A stretch of DNA of 43,799 nt, taken from IMG/VR virus record IMGVR_UViG_3300046516_000409, positions 1 to 43,799 of that record; one strand, 5' to 3'. The notes beneath the pieces were generated by a model. The model made no database searches and was not told where the DNA came from. It worked only from the letters and a program-made list of their open reading frames with translations. Origin of the DNA: a virus. Every line of letters begins with the position of its first letter. The stretch's first letter is position 1. Below, piece by piece: positions 1,635 through 10,288 of the stretch. The position numbers and the translations under genes are program-made.

Positions 1635-1816
1635 AGAACACTTTTGAGATCAAGCTGGGCCTCCATGTTCACGGCTCCGACGACTGGGAGCCGATGAATT
1701 ACTCCAACTATTCCTCCTGCGTTCACGCCTGGCGCGCCGTCGATCCCGACTGGGATCCCCATTTTGCCGAGTTTTCATTCGAGATCGCGGAGTTTAACGG
1801 GGTGCTGTTCGGATGA
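1631..1816 (+). CDS. Small hypothetical protein, 61 aa
   Basis: Unrecognised acidic protein rich in Trp, Tyr, Phe and Asp, with a pattern of alternating hydrophobic strands (FEIKLGLHVHG near the start, FAEFSFEIAEFNGVLFG at the end). Start 1631 overlaps the previous stop as ATGA and the stop overlaps the terL start as ATGA. It is clearly embedded in the packaging operon; a small beta protein is plausible, function unknown. Confidence 0.65.
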   Translation: MKNTFEIKLGLHVHGSDDWEPMNYSNYSSCVHAWRAVDPDWDPHFAEFSFEIAEFNGVLFG

Positions 1817-3447
1817 CGTCCATCAATCTTCAAAAGGTCAATCCGCAGGATGTCCTCGACCGCATGGACAAGGAGATGTGCGAGCGGTCCCTGCACGAGT
1901 TCGTCAAGCGGGCCTGGAAAGAGGTCGAGCCGGGCCAGCCCATGCTCGACAACTGGCACCTGCCGTTCATCTGTGAACATTTGGAGGCGATCACCGACGG
2001 CGCCCAGGTCGATGGCAAGCCCTACAACCGTCTCCTGATCAACATTCCTCCCGGCGGCATGAAATCCCTGCTGCTCAATGTGTTTTGGCCGGCCTGGGAA
2101 TGGGGGCCTGCCGCCATGCCCCACATGCGCTATCTCTGCGCGTCCCATAACATCGACCTGGTCGAGCGCGACAGCATTCGCATGCGCCGGCTGGTCACCA
2201 CCGCCTGGTATCAGAAGCACTGGGGCGACCTGGTCGAACTGACCGGCGACCAGAACTCCAAGACGGTGTTCGAAAACACCCGCTCCGGATGGCGCAGGGC
2301 GGTCGCGGCGGGAGCGGATACCGGTCACCGGGCCGACCGCGTCCTGATCGACGACGCTCTGAGCGTCAAGAACGCCAACAGCGACAGCACCCGCGAGAGC
2401 GTCAACCTGTGGTTCAGGGAATCGGTGCCGACCCGCCTCAATTCGCCGCGCAAGAGCGCCATCGTGGTGATCATGCAGCGGCTGCACGAGGCCGATCTGT
2501 CCGGAATGATCCTCGACAAGAAGCTCGGCTACGATCACATCATGATCCCGATGCGCTACGATCCGGACCGCGCCCACCCCACCATGCTCGGCTACAAAGA
2601 CCCCCGCACCATCCCCGGCGAGCTTTATTTCCCGACCCGTTTTCCCCTCGACGTGGTCGAACGCGAAGAGCGGATCATGGGGCCGTTCGCCACCGCCGGC
2701 CAAATGCAGCAGGCCCCAGTCCCGCGAGGAGGCGGCGTCATCAAGGACGCCGACTGGATCCTGTGGGACAGGCCGGAATTTCCGGCGCTCGACTTTATTA
2801 TCGCCTCCATCGACACCGCCTACGGTCTGAAGCAGGAGAACGACCCCAGCGCCATGACGGTGTGGGGGGTGTTTTCAGGCGACACCCGCAACCAGGCCAC
2901 CAGGCTGGTGGATCGCTACGGTCACCCGAAGGAAATGCCTGAAGGCGGCGCCTCCACTCACCTCGACGCCGCGCCGCGCGTCATTTTGATGTACGCCTGG
3001 ACCGAGCGCCTCAGTCTTTCCGACCTGGTCGCCAAGGTGGCCCTCCATTGCAAGAAGTTGAAGGTTGACCGCCTGCTGGTCGAGGCCAAGGCGAGCGGCA
3101 TATCGGTCGCGCAGGAGATGCGCCGTCTTTACGGACATGAGCCATGGGCGGTTCACCTGATCAATCCAGGCAACCAGGATAAACTTGCTCGGCTGTACAG
3201 TGTTCAGCCGCTGTTTGCGGAAGGCATGGTCTACGCTCCAGACAAGGAATGGGCGGAAATGGTGATCAGGCAAGTGGCTTCCTTCCCCAAGGCGCTGCAT
3301 GACGATCTTACCGACACCACATCACAGGCGATTCGCCACCTGCGCGACTGCGGATTGCTGACCCGGTCCGACGAAAGGTTGGCGGAAATGAACGAGGAAG
3401 TCCAGTATGGCCGCACCAGGCCGCTGGAGCCGCTCTATCCAGGCTGA
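1813..3447 (+). CDS. terL: Terminase large subunit (ATPase-nuclease)
   Basis: The motor that pumps DNA into the procapsid and cuts the concatemer. The 544-residue length is normal. The N-terminal ATPase shows a Walker-A-like loop IPPGGMKS (residues 78-85, Lys84) and a Walker B RVLIDDAL with Asp180-Asp181. The C-terminal RNase H-like nuclease shows three expected acidic positions: Asp334 in ASIDTAYG, Glu424 in RLLVEAKASG, and Asp498/Asp501 in HDDLTDT. The P-P-G-G-M-K-S loop differs from the commoner P-P-R-H-G-K-S form, but Lys and Ser are kept. The start overlaps the upstream stop as ATGA. Together with a P22-like portal this fits a short-tailed virus; whether packaging is headful or site-specific cannot be told here. 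Confidence 0.95.
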   Translation: MTSINLQKVNPQDVLDRMDKEMCERSLHEFVKRAWKEVEPGQPMLDNWHLPFICEHLEAITDGAQVDGKPYNRLLINIPPGGMKSLLLNVFWPAWEWGPAAMPHMRYLCASHNIDLVERDSIRMRRLVTTAWYQKHWGDLVELTGDQNSKTVFENTRSGWRRAVAAGADTGHRADRVLIDDALSVKNANSDSTRESVNLWFRESVPTRLNSPRKSAIVVIMQRLHEADLSGMILDKKLGYDHIMIPMRYDPDRAHPTMLGYKDPRTIPGELYFPTRFPLDVVEREERIMGPFATAGQMQQAPVPRGGGVIKDADWILWDRPEFPALDFIIASIDTAYGLKQENDPSAMTVWGVFSGDTRNQATRLVDRYGHPKEMPEGGASTHLDAAPRVILMYAWTERLSLSDLVAKVALHCKKLKVDRLLVEAKASGISVAQEMRRLYGHEPWAVHLINPGNQDKLARLYSVQPLFAEGMVYAPDKEWAEMVIRQVASFPKALHDDLTDTTSQAIRHLRDCGLLTRSDERLAEMNEEVQYGRTRPLEPLYPG

Positions 3448-3463: not shown

Positions 3464-3610
3464 ATGTTTTTTCGCAATAACCCCACGTCCGTGACGGAGA
3501 AGGCTCCGGAAAAGCCGATTCCAGCCCCAAAAACCCCTGAAAAACACGAAAAACACGATGAAAAGACCGAAAAACACCCCCACCGCGACATGCACGAGAG
3601 CAAAAAATGA
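3464..3610 (+). CDS. Small Lys/Glu/Pro/His-rich protein, 48 aa
   Basis: Very short low-complexity protein. After FFRNNP it is a run of KPE/EKH repeats (PEKP, PEKHEKHDEKTEKHPH) and is probably disordered. A good ribosome site (AGGGAG at 3451-3456) stands 7 bases before ATG 3464, and the TGA overlaps the next ATG as ATGA, which argues for real translation. No function is evident; it may be a linker-like or charge-binding peptide. It opens the small-gene cassette between terL and the portal. Confidence 0.6.
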   Translation: MFFRNNPTSVTEKAPEKPIPAPKTPEKHEKHDEKTEKHPHRDMHESKK

Positions 3611-4194
3611 CTAAAAAGACCGAACATGAGCACCAGGTCCATAAGTCGAGCCGCATCAAACCCTCGATTCAGGCTGCTTTGGACGAAACGCACCCCACCG
3701 GGGGCGCTGAAGTGCTCCACCATCACCCTTCCGTGGCCGGATCGCACCGCCGGCCCGGCGATTTCGACGTATTCGACCCCCAAGACCCCGGCATGCAGGG
3801 CATTCCGCTGGCCGGGCCTCCTTCTTACCTGTCGCCATCGACCGGCGACCTCCAAAGGAAGCTGGCGGAAGCTCCTCCTCTCTTAATGCCCGATCTTGAG
3901 CACGTCGCCGCCTTTGGCGAGGGCTTCACTCACATCGCCAGCGGCAATGAGGGCGTCACCGCGACCAATATTCATCCCAACCAGGTCCGCTTCATGGATT
4001 TCGGCGCCGCGCTTCTCCAATTGGAGCAGGGCCACCGCATTCAGCGCAAGGCGTGGAGCGGCAGATGGGTCGAGGCCCGCTTTCCCGACGGCGCGCCGGC
4101 GTGTCTTTACATGACGCTGGCCAACGGCGAAATGACCATCTGGACTATCTCCCAAGCTGACGTATTGGCCAGAGACTGGAGCATTGCGCCATGA
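3607..4194 (+). CDS. Protein with C-terminal DUF2829/Tad2-like domain
   Basis: The 195-residue protein has a His- and Pro-rich, probably disordered N-terminal part (1-125) and a C-terminal domain (130-195) that starts MDFGAALLQLEQGHRIQRK and ends with S-Q-A-D-V-L-A-R-D-W. This is the DUF2829 pattern: F-G-A at the start, an R-x-x-W-S/N-G step, and a final D-x-L-A-x-D-W. The family contains Tad2, the phage protein that sequesters the cyclic ADP-ribose signal of Thoeris defence. Compared with the next gene, the middle of the domain is about 30 residues shorter, so it may be degenerate, a structural partner, or tuned to another ligand. The start overlaps the previous stop and the stop overlaps the next start (ATGA both times). 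Confidence 0.75.
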   Translation: MTKKTEHEHQVHKSSRIKPSIQAALDETHPTGGAEVLHHHPSVAGSHRRPGDFDVFDPQDPGMQGIPLAGPPSYLSPSTGDLQRKLAEAPPLLMPDLEHVAAFGEGFTHIASGNEGVTATNIHPNQVRFMDFGAALLQLEQGHRIQRKAWSGRWVEARFPDGAPACLYMTLANGEMTIWTISQADVLARDWSIAP

Positions 4195-4529
4195 CCGTAG
4201 TTGAGAACGACCGTATGACGTCCATCAATCCCTACAGCATGGATTTTGGCACGGCCATCCTGCAAATGCGGGCCGGCTGCAAAGTCCAGCGCGAGGGCTG
4301 GAACGGCAAGGATATGTGGATCGCCCTGTCGGGCGTGGAGGGACCGCGCGTAGTCTACCACGAGCAGCTTTGGTCGAAGGTCGCCCGCGATTACGCCAAA
4401 ACCCAGCCCGATGGGAGAGTTACCGTCCTGCCCTGCTTCATCATGAAGACGGCGACCGGCGAAATCCTGATGGGTTGGCTGGCGAGCCAATCCGACATGC
4501 TGGCCCAGGATTGGAGAGTTGTGCCGTGA
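4191..4529 (+). CDS. tad2: DUF2829 / Thoeris anti-defence Tad2-family protein
   Basis: Full-length DUF2829 protein (112 residues, domain 17-112). Diagnostic stretches are MDFGTAILQMRAGCKVQREG, a W-N-G-K step, C-F-I-M-K-T-A-T-G-E-I, and the ending W-L-A-S-Q-S-D-M-L-A-Q-D-W. Members of this family characterised as Tad2 act as molecular sponges: they form small oligomers that bind the signalling nucleotide made by the Thoeris TIR protein and so keep the effector silent. Family membership is clear from the sequence; the anti-Thoeris activity is inferred. It lies right behind a second gene with the same domain and uses GTGA coupling to the next gene. The ATG at 4215 is an alternative start that would still include the whole domain. 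Confidence 0.82.
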   Translation: MTVVENDRMTSINPYSMDFGTAILQMRAGCKVQREGWNGKDMWIALSGVEGPRVVYHEQLWSKVARDYAKTQPDGRVTVLPCFIMKTATGEILMGWLASQSDMLAQDWRVVP

Positions 4530-4717
4530 CCCCGTTCAGGCCCGAACCCATCAAGACGACCAAGCTATGGACCGGCGTCTGCCGCGACGGCCCGTGGAAA
4601 GGCCTGCCATTGACGGCGGGATCGCGCTTCGTCTGCGCCCCCGACGGCAATGAATACTGCAATGACGGGACCGGACACTGGAACTGGGTCGAGCTACACC
4701 ACGAGGGCAAGAAATGA
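4526..4717 (+). CDS. Small hypothetical protein related to the next gene's N-terminus, 63 aa
   Basis: Short protein starting at GTG 4526 (GTGA overlap with the Tad2-like stop). The core G-V-C-x-x-G-P-x(5)-L-T-x(20-30)-W-x-W-V/L is shared with the first 60 residues of the following protein, so these are tandem paralogous domains, about 40 residues with several Cys, Gly and Trp. I do not know the family. Its TGA overlaps the next ATG. A GTG start is chosen from the overlap and because the reading frame upstream is only a shadow of the Tad2-like gene. Confidence 0.6.
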   Translation: MTPFRPEPIKTTKLWTGVCRDGPWKGLPLTAGSRFVCAPDGNEYCNDGTGHWNWVELHHEGKK

Positions 4718-5172
4718 GCAAAATCCTCAATGGCGTTTGCGTCGGCGGTCCCCTGAATGACCGGGGCCTGACCTGGGACAAGGACGTGAAAGTGCTGCTG
4801 GCGTCGAACAACGACGGCCACGCCGGCGAATACCACTATGACCACGCAGCCACCAACAAGTGGATCTGGCTTGACGAAGGCAAGGAACAAACCATGAGCA
4901 GAGCAGCCGAAGAGCAGACCATACCCCGAATTACGCCCGAAATCATCGATAAGCGCATCGTGCGGGTGAAATACTATCAATTTCCCGACTCCACCGTCAT
5001 GATCTGCGCCATCGAACTGACCAATGGCTACCATGTCATTGGCGAGGCCGGCTGCTCTTCTCCGCTCACTTTTGACGAAACCATCGCCAGGCGGATCTCC
5101 TTCGACGACGCCCGCCGCAAGATCTGGCCGCTGGAGGGCTACGTCCTCCGCAACGAACTGAAGGGGCTATGA
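4714..5172 (+). CDS. N4 Gp49/Sf6 gp66-family protein with duplicated N-terminal domain
   Basis: Two-part protein of 152 residues. Residues 1-59 repeat the small domain of the upstream gene. Residues about 75-150 match the Gp49 family (named after phage N4 Gp49 and Sf6 gene 66): hallmarks are K-Y-Y-x-F, the strand-turn T-N-G-Y-H-V-I-G, a C-S-S-P-L-T-F-D step and the ending W-P-L-E-G-Y-V-L. The family is common in phages and has no established biochemical role that I know. An internal ATG at 4894 with AAGGA upstream could start a separate 92-residue Gp49-only product, so this may be two proteins made from one frame. The stop overlaps the next start as ATGA. Confidence 0.75.
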   Translation: MSKILNGVCVGGPLNDRGLTWDKDVKVLLASNNDGHAGEYHYDHAATNKWIWLDEGKEQTMSRAAEEQTIPRITPEIIDKRIVRVKYYQFPDSTVMICAIELTNGYHVIGEAGCSSPLTFDETIARRISFDDARRKIWPLEGYVLRNELKGL

Positions 5173-5540: not shown

Positions 5541-8075
5541 ATGCCATTGGTGCCGGGCTTGCCCCTGAACATCCGCCAGACCAATGGCGGCGCCCCGCCG
5601 GCCATTTCTCCGGGCGTCTCCATCCAGCATGACGTTCACGAGCCTCCCGGCGTCCCCGAAATGGACGACGCCGGCGCTGTCATCAAGATCGAGCATGCCG
5701 ACGGCAGCGTCACTGTCTCGCTTGATGGCAAATCGCTGGTCGATAAGCCAGAGCAGAACACAGGCTGGTTCGCCAACCTGGCCGAAAAGCTTCCGGAAGA
5801 CGATCTGAGCGGCATTGCCGACGATTTGCTGCGCGGGATCGACGAGGATCTGACCAGCCGCAACGACTGGATCGAAGAGCGCGCCCAGGGCATCAAGCTG
5901 CTCGGCCTCAAGATCGAGATCCCCAATTTGCAGTCGGCGGCGGACGGCGCCCCGGTGGACGGCATGTCAAAAGTGCGGCATCCGCTGCTGCAGGAGGCGG
6001 TGCTCCGCTTTCAAGCCAACTGCCGCTCCGAAATGCTGCCCACCGACGGGCCGATCAAGATCCGCGATGACGGCAGCAACTCCAATCTCCCTCGTGACGC
6101 ACTGGCGACCGCCCTTGAAAAAGACCTCAATCATTATCTCACTGTCACTGCGACCGAATACTATCCCGACACCGACAAGATGTTCCTTCTGCTGGGCTTT
6201 GGCGGCACGGCATTCAAGAAAGTGTACAACTGCCCGCTGCGTAATCGGCCAGTTTCTGAATCGGTTGACGCCAACGACCTCATCGTCAACGACGCCGCCA
6301 CCGACCTCGCCAACGCCAAGCGTGTTACCCATCGATCTATGATGCGGCCCTCGACGGTCAGGCGCATGCAGATAATCGGCGCCTATCGCGACATCGACCT
6401 CGATACGCCCAAGCCGCAGACGCTCGACGCTGCGCAGGAGGCGGCTAAAAACCAGCAAGGGATCCAGACCAACACCACGAGGCCCGACGACCGTGACCGC
6501 GAGATCTACGAGTGCTATTGCGAACTCGATCTCAAAGGCTACGAGCACAAGTACAAAGGCAAGATTTCGGGCCTTGAGATCCCGTACCGGGTCACCATCG
6601 ACCTCTCCAGCCGCAAAATCCTCTCGGTCGTCAGAAACTACGATGAGGACACGAAGGAGCTTCCTGAAGCTAGAGAGACATTCGTCAAATATACCTACGT
6701 ACCGGGCCTCGGCTTCTACGATATCGGACTCCTTCATATATTGGGCAATACCACCAACGCTGTTACTGCTGCTTGGCGCGAGTTGCTGGACGCTGGAATG
6801 TTTAACAACTTTCCCGGCTTTCTCATGGCTGATACGGGAGCCAGACAGAACACGAATATCTTCCGCGTACCGCCGGGCGGCGGCGTCCTCGTCAAGACGG
6901 GCGGTCTTCCCATCAATCAGGCGATTATGCCACTTCCTTACCAGCCGCCGTCTCAAGCTCTGATGGCCCTGGTCGATAACATGGTGCAGACCGGCCAGCG
7001 CAGCGGCGGCACCGCCGAACTGCCGGCCAACGAAGGCAAGGCCGAAATCCCCGTCGGCACCATCCTGGCGATGATCGAGCAGGCCCAGAAGGTGCTGAAC
7101 AACGTCCACAAGCGCATGCACTCGGCGCAATCGCAGGAATTTCGCCTGCTGATACGCTGCTTCAAGGAGAACCCCAAGGCGTTCTGGCAGCGCAACAAGA
7201 AGCCGTCCGCGCCGTGGGACGAGCAGAACTTCCGCGCCGCGCTCGATCAGGCCGACCTGACCCCGCAGGCCGATCCGAATACGTCGAGCCATGGCCAGCG
7301 CGTGATGAAGATCATGGCGCTCAAGCAGTTGCAGCAGCAAAACCCCAGTCTCTACGACCCCATCGCCATCGATACGGCGGCGCTGCAGGCGCTGGGCTGG
7401 AACAATCCGCAGCAATTCATGGCGCCGCCGAGCGCCCAGGCCGCGCCTCCCCCGCAACTCATCCAGCAGCAGGCTGAGACGGCGGCGAAGACCCTCACCT
7501 CGCAGGCGGCGATGGTCACCGCCCAGGCGCGGGCCAAGGAGGCCGGCGCCCGCGCCATGAACCTGATGGCGGAAGCCCAGACCATGGGCATGGACGAAAC
7601 CGGCCAGATCCAGCAGGACACGCCGGTCGATCAGCACCGCGCCGAATCGGAGCGCATCAAGGCCAACGCGCATGCGCAGCAGGCCGACACTCACCAATCC
7701 GTCATGCAGGCCAAGTCCCAGGCCGACCTGCTGAACGCCCAGACGCGGGCCAAGGAAATCCAATTGAAGCTGGGCGAACTGTCGATGAAGGATTCGCACC
7801 ACGACGACGAGCAGCGCCTCAAGGCGAGGCAGAGCGCCGTCGATATGGCCAAGCAGGTCATGGACACCCGTGCCGAAGACCAGCGCACCGCCGCCGAGAT
7901 CCATCACGATCACACCATACTGAGCCGCGAGCAGGAGCACGATCACGCGATCACCGAAAAGACCCACGCGCATGAGAAGGAATTGGAGGGCGTGAAGAAA
8001 GCGGCGGCTATCGCGGTCGCTAAAGCCAAACCGAAACCCAAGCCTGCAGCCGCCAAGCCAAAGGCCAAGAAATGA
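5541..8075 (+). CDS. Portal protein (P22-like)
   Basis: Forms the dodecameric ring at the packaging vertex, through which DNA enters and leaves. At 844 residues it is long, as in P22-type portals. The core runs from about 90 to 560 and contains characteristic segments such as YVPGLGFYDIGLLHILGNTT followed by N-A-V-T-A-A-W-R-E-L-L-D-A-G and the F-R-V-P-P-G-G-G step. Residues about 640-840 are an Ala/Gln/His/Glu-rich helix suited to a coiled-coil barrel, and the extreme C-terminus is a Lys/Pro/Ala tail. AGAGGA stands upstream of ATG 5541. It overlaps the next gene by ATGA. The long C-terminal helix would reach into the capsid as the P22 barrel does; that is an inference. Confidence 0.9.
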   Translation: MPLVPGLPLNIRQTNGGAPPAISPGVSIQHDVHEPPGVPEMDDAGAVIKIEHADGSVTVSLDGKSLVDKPEQNTGWFANLAEKLPEDDLSGIADDLLRGIDEDLTSRNDWIEERAQGIKLLGLKIEIPNLQSAADGAPVDGMSKVRHPLLQEAVLRFQANCRSEMLPTDGPIKIRDDGSNSNLPRDALATALEKDLNHYLTVTATEYYPDTDKMFLLLGFGGTAFKKVYNCPLRNRPVSESVDANDLIVNDAATDLANAKRVTHRSMMRPSTVRRMQIIGAYRDIDLDTPKPQTLDAAQEAAKNQQGIQTNTTRPDDRDREIYECYCELDLKGYEHKYKGKISGLEIPYRVTIDLSSRKILSVVRNYDEDTKELPEARETFVKYTYVPGLGFYDIGLLHILGNTTNAVTAAWRELLDAGMFNNFPGFLMADTGARQNTNIFRVPPGGGVLVKTGGLPINQAIMPLPYQPPSQALMALVDNMVQTGQRSGGTAELPANEGKAEIPVGTILAMIEQAQKVLNNVHKRMHSAQSQEFRLLIRCFKENPKAFWQRNKKPSAPWDEQNFRAALDQADLTPQADPNTSSHGQRVMKIMALKQLQQQNPSLYDPIAIDTAALQALGWNNPQQFMAPPSAQAAPPPQLIQQQAETAAKTLTSQAAMVTAQARAKEAGARAMNLMAEAQTMGMDETGQIQQDTPVDQHRAESERIKANAHAQQADTHQSVMQAKSQADLLNAQTRAKEIQLKLGELSMKDSHHDDEQRLKARQSAVDMAKQVMDTRAEDQRTAAEIHHDHTILSREQEHDHAITEKTHAHEKELEGVKKAAAIAVAKAKPKPKPAAAKPKAKK

Positions 8076-10288
8076 ACGAGCGCGCGAAAGCCCTTGGCTT
8101 CGATCCGTCGCAGACGTGGTTTCACGGCTCAACTAAGGATCTGCCGGCTTTCGCCGCCAAGCGCGCTCCGCGCAGCGAGCAAATGGGCCTGGAAGGCGTT
8201 CACCTTGCGCAAAATCCGGATTTTGCCTCCCATTACGCCGAAGGGCCTGGCGGCAACGTCACGCCAGTTCATGTGCGCGGCAATATTCTCGACGCCACCC
8301 AGCTTATCCCCGAAGGCGGCGAGCATCACGCCATTCTCGATAAGCTGCTGAAGGGAACAGGCCGCAAGCCATACTGGAACTCTGATGAGCAGGGGCGTCG
8401 ATTCGCCCCGCCGCTTCAGGGTCATATCGACGCCGTCAGCCCGCAAAAGGCCAAGCGCGTCATCCAGGAACACGGCTACGACGGCGTCAAATACGATGCT
8501 CGATACGGATCATTGCAGCCTGGAGGCCGCAGCGCGAGCATTTCAAACAAAAGCCCCGCAGTGGTGATGTTCGACCCATCGAATATCCGGGCCAGGACTG
8601 CACAATTCGACCCCCAGCAAGCAGGGAGCGCGGAACTAATGGCATCGAGAGGCGGTAAGGCGATCCACTCTGCGCTCCTGACGGCCAAGAGCCTTTATGA
8701 CAAGCTGCCGCATGTCGTCGGCGGCGGGGCGCCGATGGCCAAGGGCGGCGCTGCGCTGGCGCCGATTCCCCAGATCATCATGCCGGGCGATCACCCGGCC
8801 CGCATCGACACCCGGCTGGCGACCGGGGCCAAGCCGCTCGATCTGGGGCCAGGGCCGCGCACCGTCAACATGGCTGCGTTGCGGGCGACGCCGGCGCTGT
8901 TCGACAAGAACGTCGATATCCTGCGGCACTACCCGAATGTTTCGAAAAGGGCGGCGAAGCTGTCGAACCCGGATATGGCCGAGCATTTCATCAATCACGT
9001 CAAGGACAACCTGCTGTGGCTGCACGATCAGGTGCCCAACGAAACCCGGCAGCGGTCCAAATTGTGGTACGACGGCGCCAACAAGCTGGCCAAGGAGTGG
9101 GCGCAAAAATACGGCGTCTCGGAGGCGTCCGCCGCCGGCGCGCTGGCCGCGCTGTCGCCGCAGAAGGACTGGTTTCAGAACGTGTCGCTGGCCGAGCGCG
9201 TCCTGCATGCGATGAAGGGGCGCGGCAATAACGCATATCATGGTGAAACCTTTTCGCCTGAAATGGAGGGCACCTATCGCGGCCTGGACAAGCTGGCCAC
9301 CGAGAAGAACGAGCCAATCTTCCAGGCGATCAGGGGCAAGTCGCTGGGCGACATCGACGACATGAAGCACATTCCCGGCGACGAGCGCGCGGTCATGAAG
9401 GCGCTGTGGATCCGGATGCACGATCAGACCCACGGCGATCCCGGCTACAAGATCGCCACGCCGGAAGGTCATTTTGGCGAGGTCGCCCGGAACGCCGACG
9501 GATCGCCATCGAGGGCGGGCTGGGGTTCGCTGGGCGAAATCGGCAAGGCGGTGCAGGCCATCGAGAGCAATGGCGATCCGACCTTCATGAACCGCCTGAT
9601 GGGCGAGCGCCACAAGGTTCGCAATTTCTACAATAACATCCTCGATCCCAACTCCCAGCACGGCGACGTCACCATCGACACCCATGCGGTCGCCGCCGGC
9701 CTGCTGCGCGCGCTGTCGGGCAATTCGCTTGAGGTGGCGCACAATTTCAGCAACTACGCCGGCAAGGGCGTTCCCGGCGCCGGCGGCTCCAACGCCACCG
9801 GCGTGAACGGAACCTATCCGCTCTACGCCGACGCCTATCGCCAAGCCGCCAAAGAGCGCGGTATACTGCCGCGCGAAATGCAATCGATTACGTGGGAGGC
9901 GATCAGAGGATTGTTCCCCGACACCTTCAAAACTGATAAAAACAACGCCCATATCGACAGCATCTGGAACGACTACAAGAACGGAAAGAAGGGAATCGAC
10001 GATGTCCGCAAAGAAATCCACGACTTCGCGGGGGGCATCCGGCCACCGGAGTGGCACGACACCTCTGGAACGCCTGATGCACCGGTTCGGGGTGCCAGTG
10101 GACCGGGACTCGTACCTGGCCCTGGATCACGCGGGCCAGCCCCCCAAGGAATTATCGGCGGAACAGGAAATGGACCTCCCGGAGCACCTGCGCCGCAAGC
10201 ACCCCGGCAGTCGGGGCTGATCCTGCCGCCAGGTTATGCCTGCGGCGGCATGATCGACAAAGCATTGGCCGCGACACGGCCCCGGTAA
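8072..10288 (+). CDS. Large protein with ADP-ribosyltransferase-like N-terminus and phage domain
   Basis: The 738-residue protein overlaps the portal gene by ATGA. Residues about 14-176 resemble the ART domain of phage polyvalent proteins: W-F-H-G-S (His18), a central G-V-H-L-A-Q-N-P-D-F-A-S-H-Y (Tyr55) and a closing strand ending V-V-M-F-D-P-S-N-I-R. His and Tyr fit an H-Y-E-type NAD site; the third acid is not certain. Residues about 270-560 carry a second conserved phage domain with AALSPQKDWFQNVSLAE and DVTIDTHAVAAGLL. I know this pattern from phage and plasmid proteins (I believe DUF7178-like) but not its function. After about 640 it becomes Pro/Gly-rich, where another gene overlaps in a different frame, and it ends GGMIDKALAATRPR. 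Location suggests a virion protein that may be injected. Confidence 0.75.
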   Translation: MNERAKALGFDPSQTWFHGSTKDLPAFAAKRAPRSEQMGLEGVHLAQNPDFASHYAEGPGGNVTPVHVRGNILDATQLIPEGGEHHAILDKLLKGTGRKPYWNSDEQGRRFAPPLQGHIDAVSPQKAKRVIQEHGYDGVKYDARYGSLQPGGRSASISNKSPAVVMFDPSNIRARTAQFDPQQAGSAELMASRGGKAIHSALLTAKSLYDKLPHVVGGGAPMAKGGAALAPIPQIIMPGDHPARIDTRLATGAKPLDLGPGPRTVNMAALRATPALFDKNVDILRHYPNVSKRAAKLSNPDMAEHFINHVKDNLLWLHDQVPNETRQRSKLWYDGANKLAKEWAQKYGVSEASAAGALAALSPQKDWFQNVSLAERVLHAMKGRGNNAYHGETFSPEMEGTYRGLDKLATEKNEPIFQAIRGKSLGDIDDMKHIPGDERAVMKALWIRMHDQTHGDPGYKIATPEGHFGEVARNADGSPSRAGWGSLGEIGKAVQAIESNGDPTFMNRLMGERHKVRNFYNNILDPNSQHGDVTIDTHAVAAGLLRALSGNSLEVAHNFSNYAGKGVPGAGGSNATGVNGTYPLYADAYRQAAKERGILPREMQSITWEAIRGLFPDTFKTDKNNAHIDSIWNDYKNGKKGIDDVRKEIHDFAGGIRPPEWHDTSGTPDAPVRGASGPGLVPGPGSRGPAPQGIIGGTGNGPPGAPAPQAPRQSGLILPPGYACGGMIDKALAATRPR
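10002..10220 (+). CDS. Nested out-of-frame small phage protein, 72 aa
   Basis: A 72-residue frame lies entirely inside the 3' end of the large ART-containing gene, in another frame. The product looks like a real protein: LERLMHRFGVPVDRDSYLAL, then D-H-A-G-Q-P-P-K-E-L-S-A-E-Q-E-M-D-L-P-E-H-L-R, a pattern of short acidic phage proteins that often accompany head genes in alphaproteobacterial phages. AAGGGA lies 7 bases before its ATG. In the same interval the host frame turns into low-complexity Pro/Gly sequence, as expected when a second frame carries the constraint. The host frame resumes a plausible C-terminus after this gene ends. Dual coding is the best reading; a sequencing frameshift is the alternative. 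Confidence 0.6.
   Translation: MSAKKSTTSRGASGHRSGTTPLERLMHRFGVPVDRDSYLALDHAGQPPKELSAEQEMDLPEHLRRKHPGSRG

Follow-up and report, generated by a model that had tools for sequence, protein, structure and literature searches.

The virus record analysed here (43,799 bases, from IMG/VR), referred to as the window in its full length and representing a 43.8 kb portion of a genome of ~69 kb, carries two adjacent Tad2-like genes (ORF1 and ORF2) in its packaging region. In the favoured reading, which is given a probability of roughly 0.6, the late operon holds an accessory anti-defence slot, in which an ancestral single gene coding for an arm and a complete Tad2 domain would have been duplicated within the phage clade of the window. 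The second copy (ORF2) would have lost the arm and remained a sponge of the same class as HgmTad2 and SptTad2; the first (ORF1) would have retained both its arm and its core fold, lost helix α2 and the conserved ligand-pocket loops, and most likely become a diverged auxiliary paralogue (acting as a partner, on another ligand or in targeting), not a second classical sponge.

The features of the locus are listed in Table 1. ORF1 and ORF2 share four bases, with a GGAG motif 9 bases before the ORF2 start, and similar overlaps (ATGA or GTGA) link the small charged open reading frame before ORF1, the pair itself, the small frame behind ORF2 and the Phage_gp49_66-like gene. A preliminary description of the sequence had proposed that the pair is translationally coupled and placed between the terminase and portal genes; the overlap and the phrog and Pfam matches on both sides agree with this, and the chain of coupled frames is longer than stated there. 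In both Tad2-like genes, the coupling signal sits inside the conserved domain end, with GGAG preceding the next overlapping start within the codons around the C-terminal DW (positions 4170-4194 and 4510-4529). The two small frames gave no match in a Pfam search, and the upstream one has a homologue at the same position in the related contig L009 (67% identical). Six further IMG/VR contigs carry the pair with 100% identity, so an assembly error as its source was ruled out. A separate contig, IMGVR_UViG_3300046559_000446 (138,254 bases; loci L004 and L036-L042), carries the module twice. A host chromosome harbouring two prophages was considered and rejected, since the contig looks like two related ~69 kb genomes placed end to end; it is likely an assembly product. 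Behind the portal gene, positions 8072-10288 encode a large protein with a DUF7178 domain and a match to ART-PolyVal at 27.7 bits, below the cut-off of 31.2; it may be a polyvalent, injected protein. The relatives of terL and of the Tad2-like genes give weak hints of an alphaproteobacterial host.

Table 1. Coordinates of the Tad2-like pair and its flanking features in the window.
Feature	Position	Strand	Evidence or remark
Terminase large subunit (terL), upstream flank	1813..3447	+	phrog_38, E 1.1e-77
Small charged ORF, 48 aa	3464..3610	+	ATGA overlap with ORF1
ORF1, N-terminal disordered arm and shortened Tad2-like domain, 195 aa	3607..4194	+	PF11195, 50.4 bits
Arm of ORF1, residues 1-125, disordered	3607..3981	+	structure prediction
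Tad2-like domain of ORF1, without helix α2, loops altered	3994..4185	+	profile search, model
GGAG motif resembling a ribosome-binding site (4178-4181); ATGA overlap of stop and start (4191-4194)	4178..4194	+	
ORF2, complete Tad2-like protein, 112 aa	4191..4529	+	PF11195, 80.3 bits
Tad2-like domain of ORF2	4239..4523	+	PF11195 profile search
Small ORF, GTGA overlap with ORF2	4526..4717	+	95% identical in L009
Phage_gp49_66-like gene, ATGA overlap	4714..5172	+	PF13876, 72.9 bits
Portal protein, downstream flank	5541..8075	+	phrog_1216, E 1.6e-25; SU10_portal

Family membership was assessed with hmmscan against Pfam, using the curated cut-off of 25 bits for PF11195 (Tad2-like, formerly DUF2829). 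Both frames are open and match above this cut-off (ORF1 at residues 130-193, E 3.4e-13; ORF2 at residues 17-111, E 1.5e-22; scores in Table 1), so that the two neighbouring DUF2829 genes first noticed from the sequence alone were recovered by profile, and no further PF11195 match appeared when the complete record was searched in six frames. PADLOC and NCBIfam searches yielded nothing useful. When the AlphaFold models of both proteins were searched with Foldseek, only Tad2 structures matched at E <= 0.001. According to a review, the gcADPR pocket is formed by the β1-β2 loop, the β3-β4 loop, β4, the β4-α3 loop and α3, Tad2 dimerizes at α2 and β2, helix α1 is the tetramer interface and the cyclic dinucleotide site is the insertion between β2 and β5 (PMC12043709). 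The pocket was judged by this list of elements together with conservation, not by contact tables. The pattern used to gather most viral relatives was limited to the SQ.D.L..DW end, and genome relatives were gathered with the patterns MGWLASQ or V.R.GWNGK; conservation of these motifs is therefore partly built in, although that of WNGK in the viral set largely is not.

ORF2 is complete, as initially described. Its model (pLDDT 92.1, pTM 0.77) comprises α1, β1, β2, an extra strand, α2, further strands and α3, so that its middle segment, with the extra strand and α2, is like that of SptTad2 and HgmTad2. These two proteins are also its top matches, both by fold (SptTad2 with cGG and HgmTad2, E 7.0e-9 and 1.1e-8) and, among solved Tad2 proteins searched with phmmer, by sequence (SptTad2 8.6e-14; HgmTad2/AcrIIA7 3.7e-13). 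All 13 positions that are invariant among 84 relatives are kept, including W37, G39, K40, W96, L97, Q100 and D102, as are the nearly invariant N38, M42, G95, A98 and S99. The conserved pocket loops, WNGK between β1 and β2 and W..SQ.D in the β4-α3 region, are thus both present, and ORF2 is, to judge by its model, probably a working Tad2 sponge.

ORF1 consists of an arm with a mean pLDDT of about 50-60, except for a short helix at residues 79-88, and a domain (pLDDT 91-96) with the elements α1, β1, β2, β3, β4, α3 and β5 but without α2, at which place 20 or more residues are missing. Between two landmarks ORF1 has 16 residues where 84 complete relatives have 20-48, and the low arm pLDDT and this spacing bear out the initial picture of a 125-residue disordered arm fused to a shortened domain. 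Searches with the arms of the window and of relative L014 matched only these phage lineages, and on that basis the arm was rejected as a shared module fused to other proteins. The pocket loops are altered from WNGKDMW to WSGRW and from GWLASQ to IWTISQ, the β1-β2 loop is two residues shorter, and of the conserved pocket-loop residues only W, S, Q, D, L, D and W are kept. By the elements listed in the review (PMC12043709), the pocket of ORF1 is altered, a dimer element is missing and the β2-β5 insertion that forms the dinucleotide site is absent. The sponge function proposed for both genes is well supported by fold for ORF2 and less likely for ORF1 with its changed loops.

These changes bear on the proposal that the pair covers two signals, with ORF1 as a second working sponge of other specificity, for example for SPO1-type gcADPR or His-ADPR. 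The best PDB match of the ORF1 model is SPO1 Tad2 with gcADPR (Foldseek E about 1e-6; TM by target length up to 0.80), that of ORF2 belongs to the dual-site class, the residues kept by ORF1 lie in its C-terminal part, its segment IWTISQADVLARDW resembles TWTPSVSDILAEDW of ModTad2, and both copies are under purifying selection. Several crystal chains of SPO1 Tad2 resolve only 74-77 residues, so the missing α2 region may matter less than assumed. On the other hand, all solved functional Tad2 proteins keep the α2 segment in their sequence, GWLASQ is lost along with the shortened β1-β2 loop, and the lost WNGK site even varies among ORF1 orthologues (WSGR in the window, WEDG in L035). Coverage of two signals is hence an unproven and rather unlikely role of the pair as far as ORF1 is concerned.

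The origin of the pair was traced through relatives that carry one gene. In contigs L009-L013 (terL 95%, portal 92% identical to the window), a single gene of 235 codons encodes an arm and a complete domain, the arm sharing 68% identity with the initial part of the ORF1 arm and the domain 83% with ORF2. The first ~65 residues of the ORF1 arm are conserved in L009, with a dN/dS of 0.28 between the two arms. The more distant contigs L014-L017 (terL 64%, portal 74%) have a single gene with a shorter related arm and a complete domain that is 76% identical. Tandem pairs were found in the window, L008 (portal 93.6%) and L035 (portal 94.5%). Both genes of L035 retain arm pieces, that of the second gene, MRFGTGFTRISSSNEGVEVTN, resembling VAAFGEGFTHIASGNEGVTATN of ORF1, and ORF2 retains the end of an L014-like arm (VENDRM). 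In a maximum-likelihood tree, the three ORF1-type domains group on a long branch (99/98) nested inside the clade that unites ORF2 with the single-gene domains (89/98, 83/87). ORF1 is thus regarded as the paralogue of ORF2, and the pattern is read as duplication of an arm-plus-domain gene and subsequent complementary loss, with moderate fork support for the duplication. As the second domain of L035 falls outside the ORF2 group, exchange of genes between phages may also have contributed.

The same single-gene relatives lend some appeal to a hetero-oligomer in which ORF1 provides the arm (for localisation or valency) and the pockets come from ORF2, since arm and complete domain form one polypeptide in L009 and L014, which the split pair may reconstitute. 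The ATGA overlap points to co-translation of the two in similar amounts, and ORF1 keeps helix α1, the named tetramer interface; it lacks α2, however, which is part of the dimer interface (both assignments from PMC12043709), and such a complex is considered quite unlikely.

Relative to L008, dN/dS is 0.08 for ORF2 and 0.19 for ORF1 (the latter from a partial comparison of the 124 available codons), which indicates that neither copy is decaying. The view of ORF1 as a decaying remnant of the duplication could draw on its long branch and on its lost loops and helix, but in addition to this selection, its frame is open, its core residues are kept and L035 shares the shortened form (61% identical), so that this view, already disfavoured, is very improbable. 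Purifying selection implies some function for ORF1, and from its sequence features classical ligand binding is probably not that function.

The two Tad2-like genes change much faster than the neighbouring portal and terL genes (ORF2 and the second gene of L035, for instance, are 64% identical at a portal identity of 94.5%), and the slot is rearranged between phages with >90% identical portals. In the nearest named relative, ct7L0027 (portal 65%), PF11195 finds no match at any position, and the slot holds a gene annotated as dCTP deaminase/dUTPase and unknown genes. This divergence and absence are as expected of an accessory slot, and, going by these comparisons, the locus behaves as such and not as a structural gene. 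Packaging had been suggested for genes placed between terL and portal, which would make ORF1 and/or ORF2 virion or assembly proteins that are injected, and Tad2-like genes do adjoin the portal gene in Ruegeria phage 45A6 and an internal virion protein gene in Koot, but the pair is not conserved with the portal/terL module as a virion structural protein should be, other Tad2 genes lie elsewhere (e.g. near a DNA polymerase gene), and this least likely of the readings has no support, the fast turnover and the Tad2-free slot of ct7L0027 counting against it.

In the favoured account of an accessory slot with a sponge and an auxiliary paralogue, ORF2 is predicted to oligomerize and to sequester Thoeris gcADPR-type signals and possibly CBASS cyclic dinucleotides. 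Late expression, as presumed here, would fit a defence triggered by a capsid protein and would be compatible with anti-Thoeris work because ThsB1 of Thoeris can sense the major head protein (PMC12043709). SptTad2 slightly activated Panoptes, showing that some Tad2 proteins can trigger a defence (PMC12657218); by analogy, and as a speculation, such triggering could be a reason why loss of dinucleotide binding in one copy would pay.

Among 156 distinct loci outside the clade of the window, 24 contain a Phage_gp49_66 (PF13876) gene, which in 22 of these loci is adjacent to, overlapping with or fused to the Tad2-like gene (within a limit of 150 bases, with open frames taken from one stop to the next). 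Both domains share one open reading frame, as confirmed with Pfam, in L132:4158-5288, L165:4659-5255 and L203:4647-5276. A functional link of PF13876 to anti-defence is possible.

Should ORF1 work with or beside ORF2, the pair would show a sponge family diversifying under several signalling defences, by a route in which a gene is duplicated, one complete sponge is kept and the other copy is free to change. A bolder and doubtful extension would be a division of labour after the duplication of Tad2, with a complete sponge on one side and on the other a co-translated, armed partner with an altered pocket, forming a mixed complex or binding a different alarm signal, as a recurrent and so far undescribed paired design. 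Two testable leads follow, namely the recurring pairs of a complete and a short copy and the Tad2/gp49_66 neighbourhood, which hints at a possible function of PF13876. If the pair is simply a sponge with a diverged copy, it still provides a clean case of accessory-slot turnover between terL and portal.

Tandem Tad2 genes and their placement in late operons have precedents, and the arrangement is less singular than the preliminary description implied. A literature search found no publication on tandem Tad2-like genes as such; phage SpaA1, however, carries tandem DUF2829 genes (P60/P61) with a one-base overlap, and a third copy (P7) in the head operon, flanked by the genes for a minor head protein and the scaffold protein (PMC3398947). 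Unlike the window pair, P60/P61 lie outside the packaging operon and lack a long arm; SpaA1 itself is an unrelated phage. In 45A6, the Tad2-like gene directly follows the portal gene, and in Koot it comes after the internal virion protein. Outside the clade of the window, such pairs are uncommon (4/156 distinct loci, L050, L067, L108 and L193, a rate biased by the way the loci were collected); in the unrelated virus contigs L050, L067 and L108, a complete Tad2 adjoins a short one without WNGK and GWLASQ. The single-gene relatives L009-L013 and L014-L017 share the operon position of the window pair but have one gene instead of two.

Of the characterized proteins, HgmTad2/AcrIIA7 and SptTad2 (PDB 8kbi-8kbm, 8wjd), whose structures were solved with cyclic dinucleotide and/or cADPR bound, are closest to ORF2 by sequence and fold. 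They have the order of elements, the middle insertion and the WNGK and GWLASQ motifs in common with it at about 33% identity, whereas the window has a second, shortened copy just upstream. The likeness to the anti-CRISPR AcrIIA7 is that of a relative in sequence and modelled fold. SPO1 Tad2 (gp34.65; 8sme-8smg, 8wje) is the best fold match of ORF1, which is shorter still, lacks WNGK and the α2 segment and has the 125-residue arm in addition. ModTad2/MoTad2 from a Myroides prophage (8v3e, 9eib), solved with His-ADPR, aligns well to the C-terminal part of ORF1 but keeps WNGKGM and the middle segment. Set against these systems, the pair represents a variant, specific to its lineage, of a known anti-defence theme.
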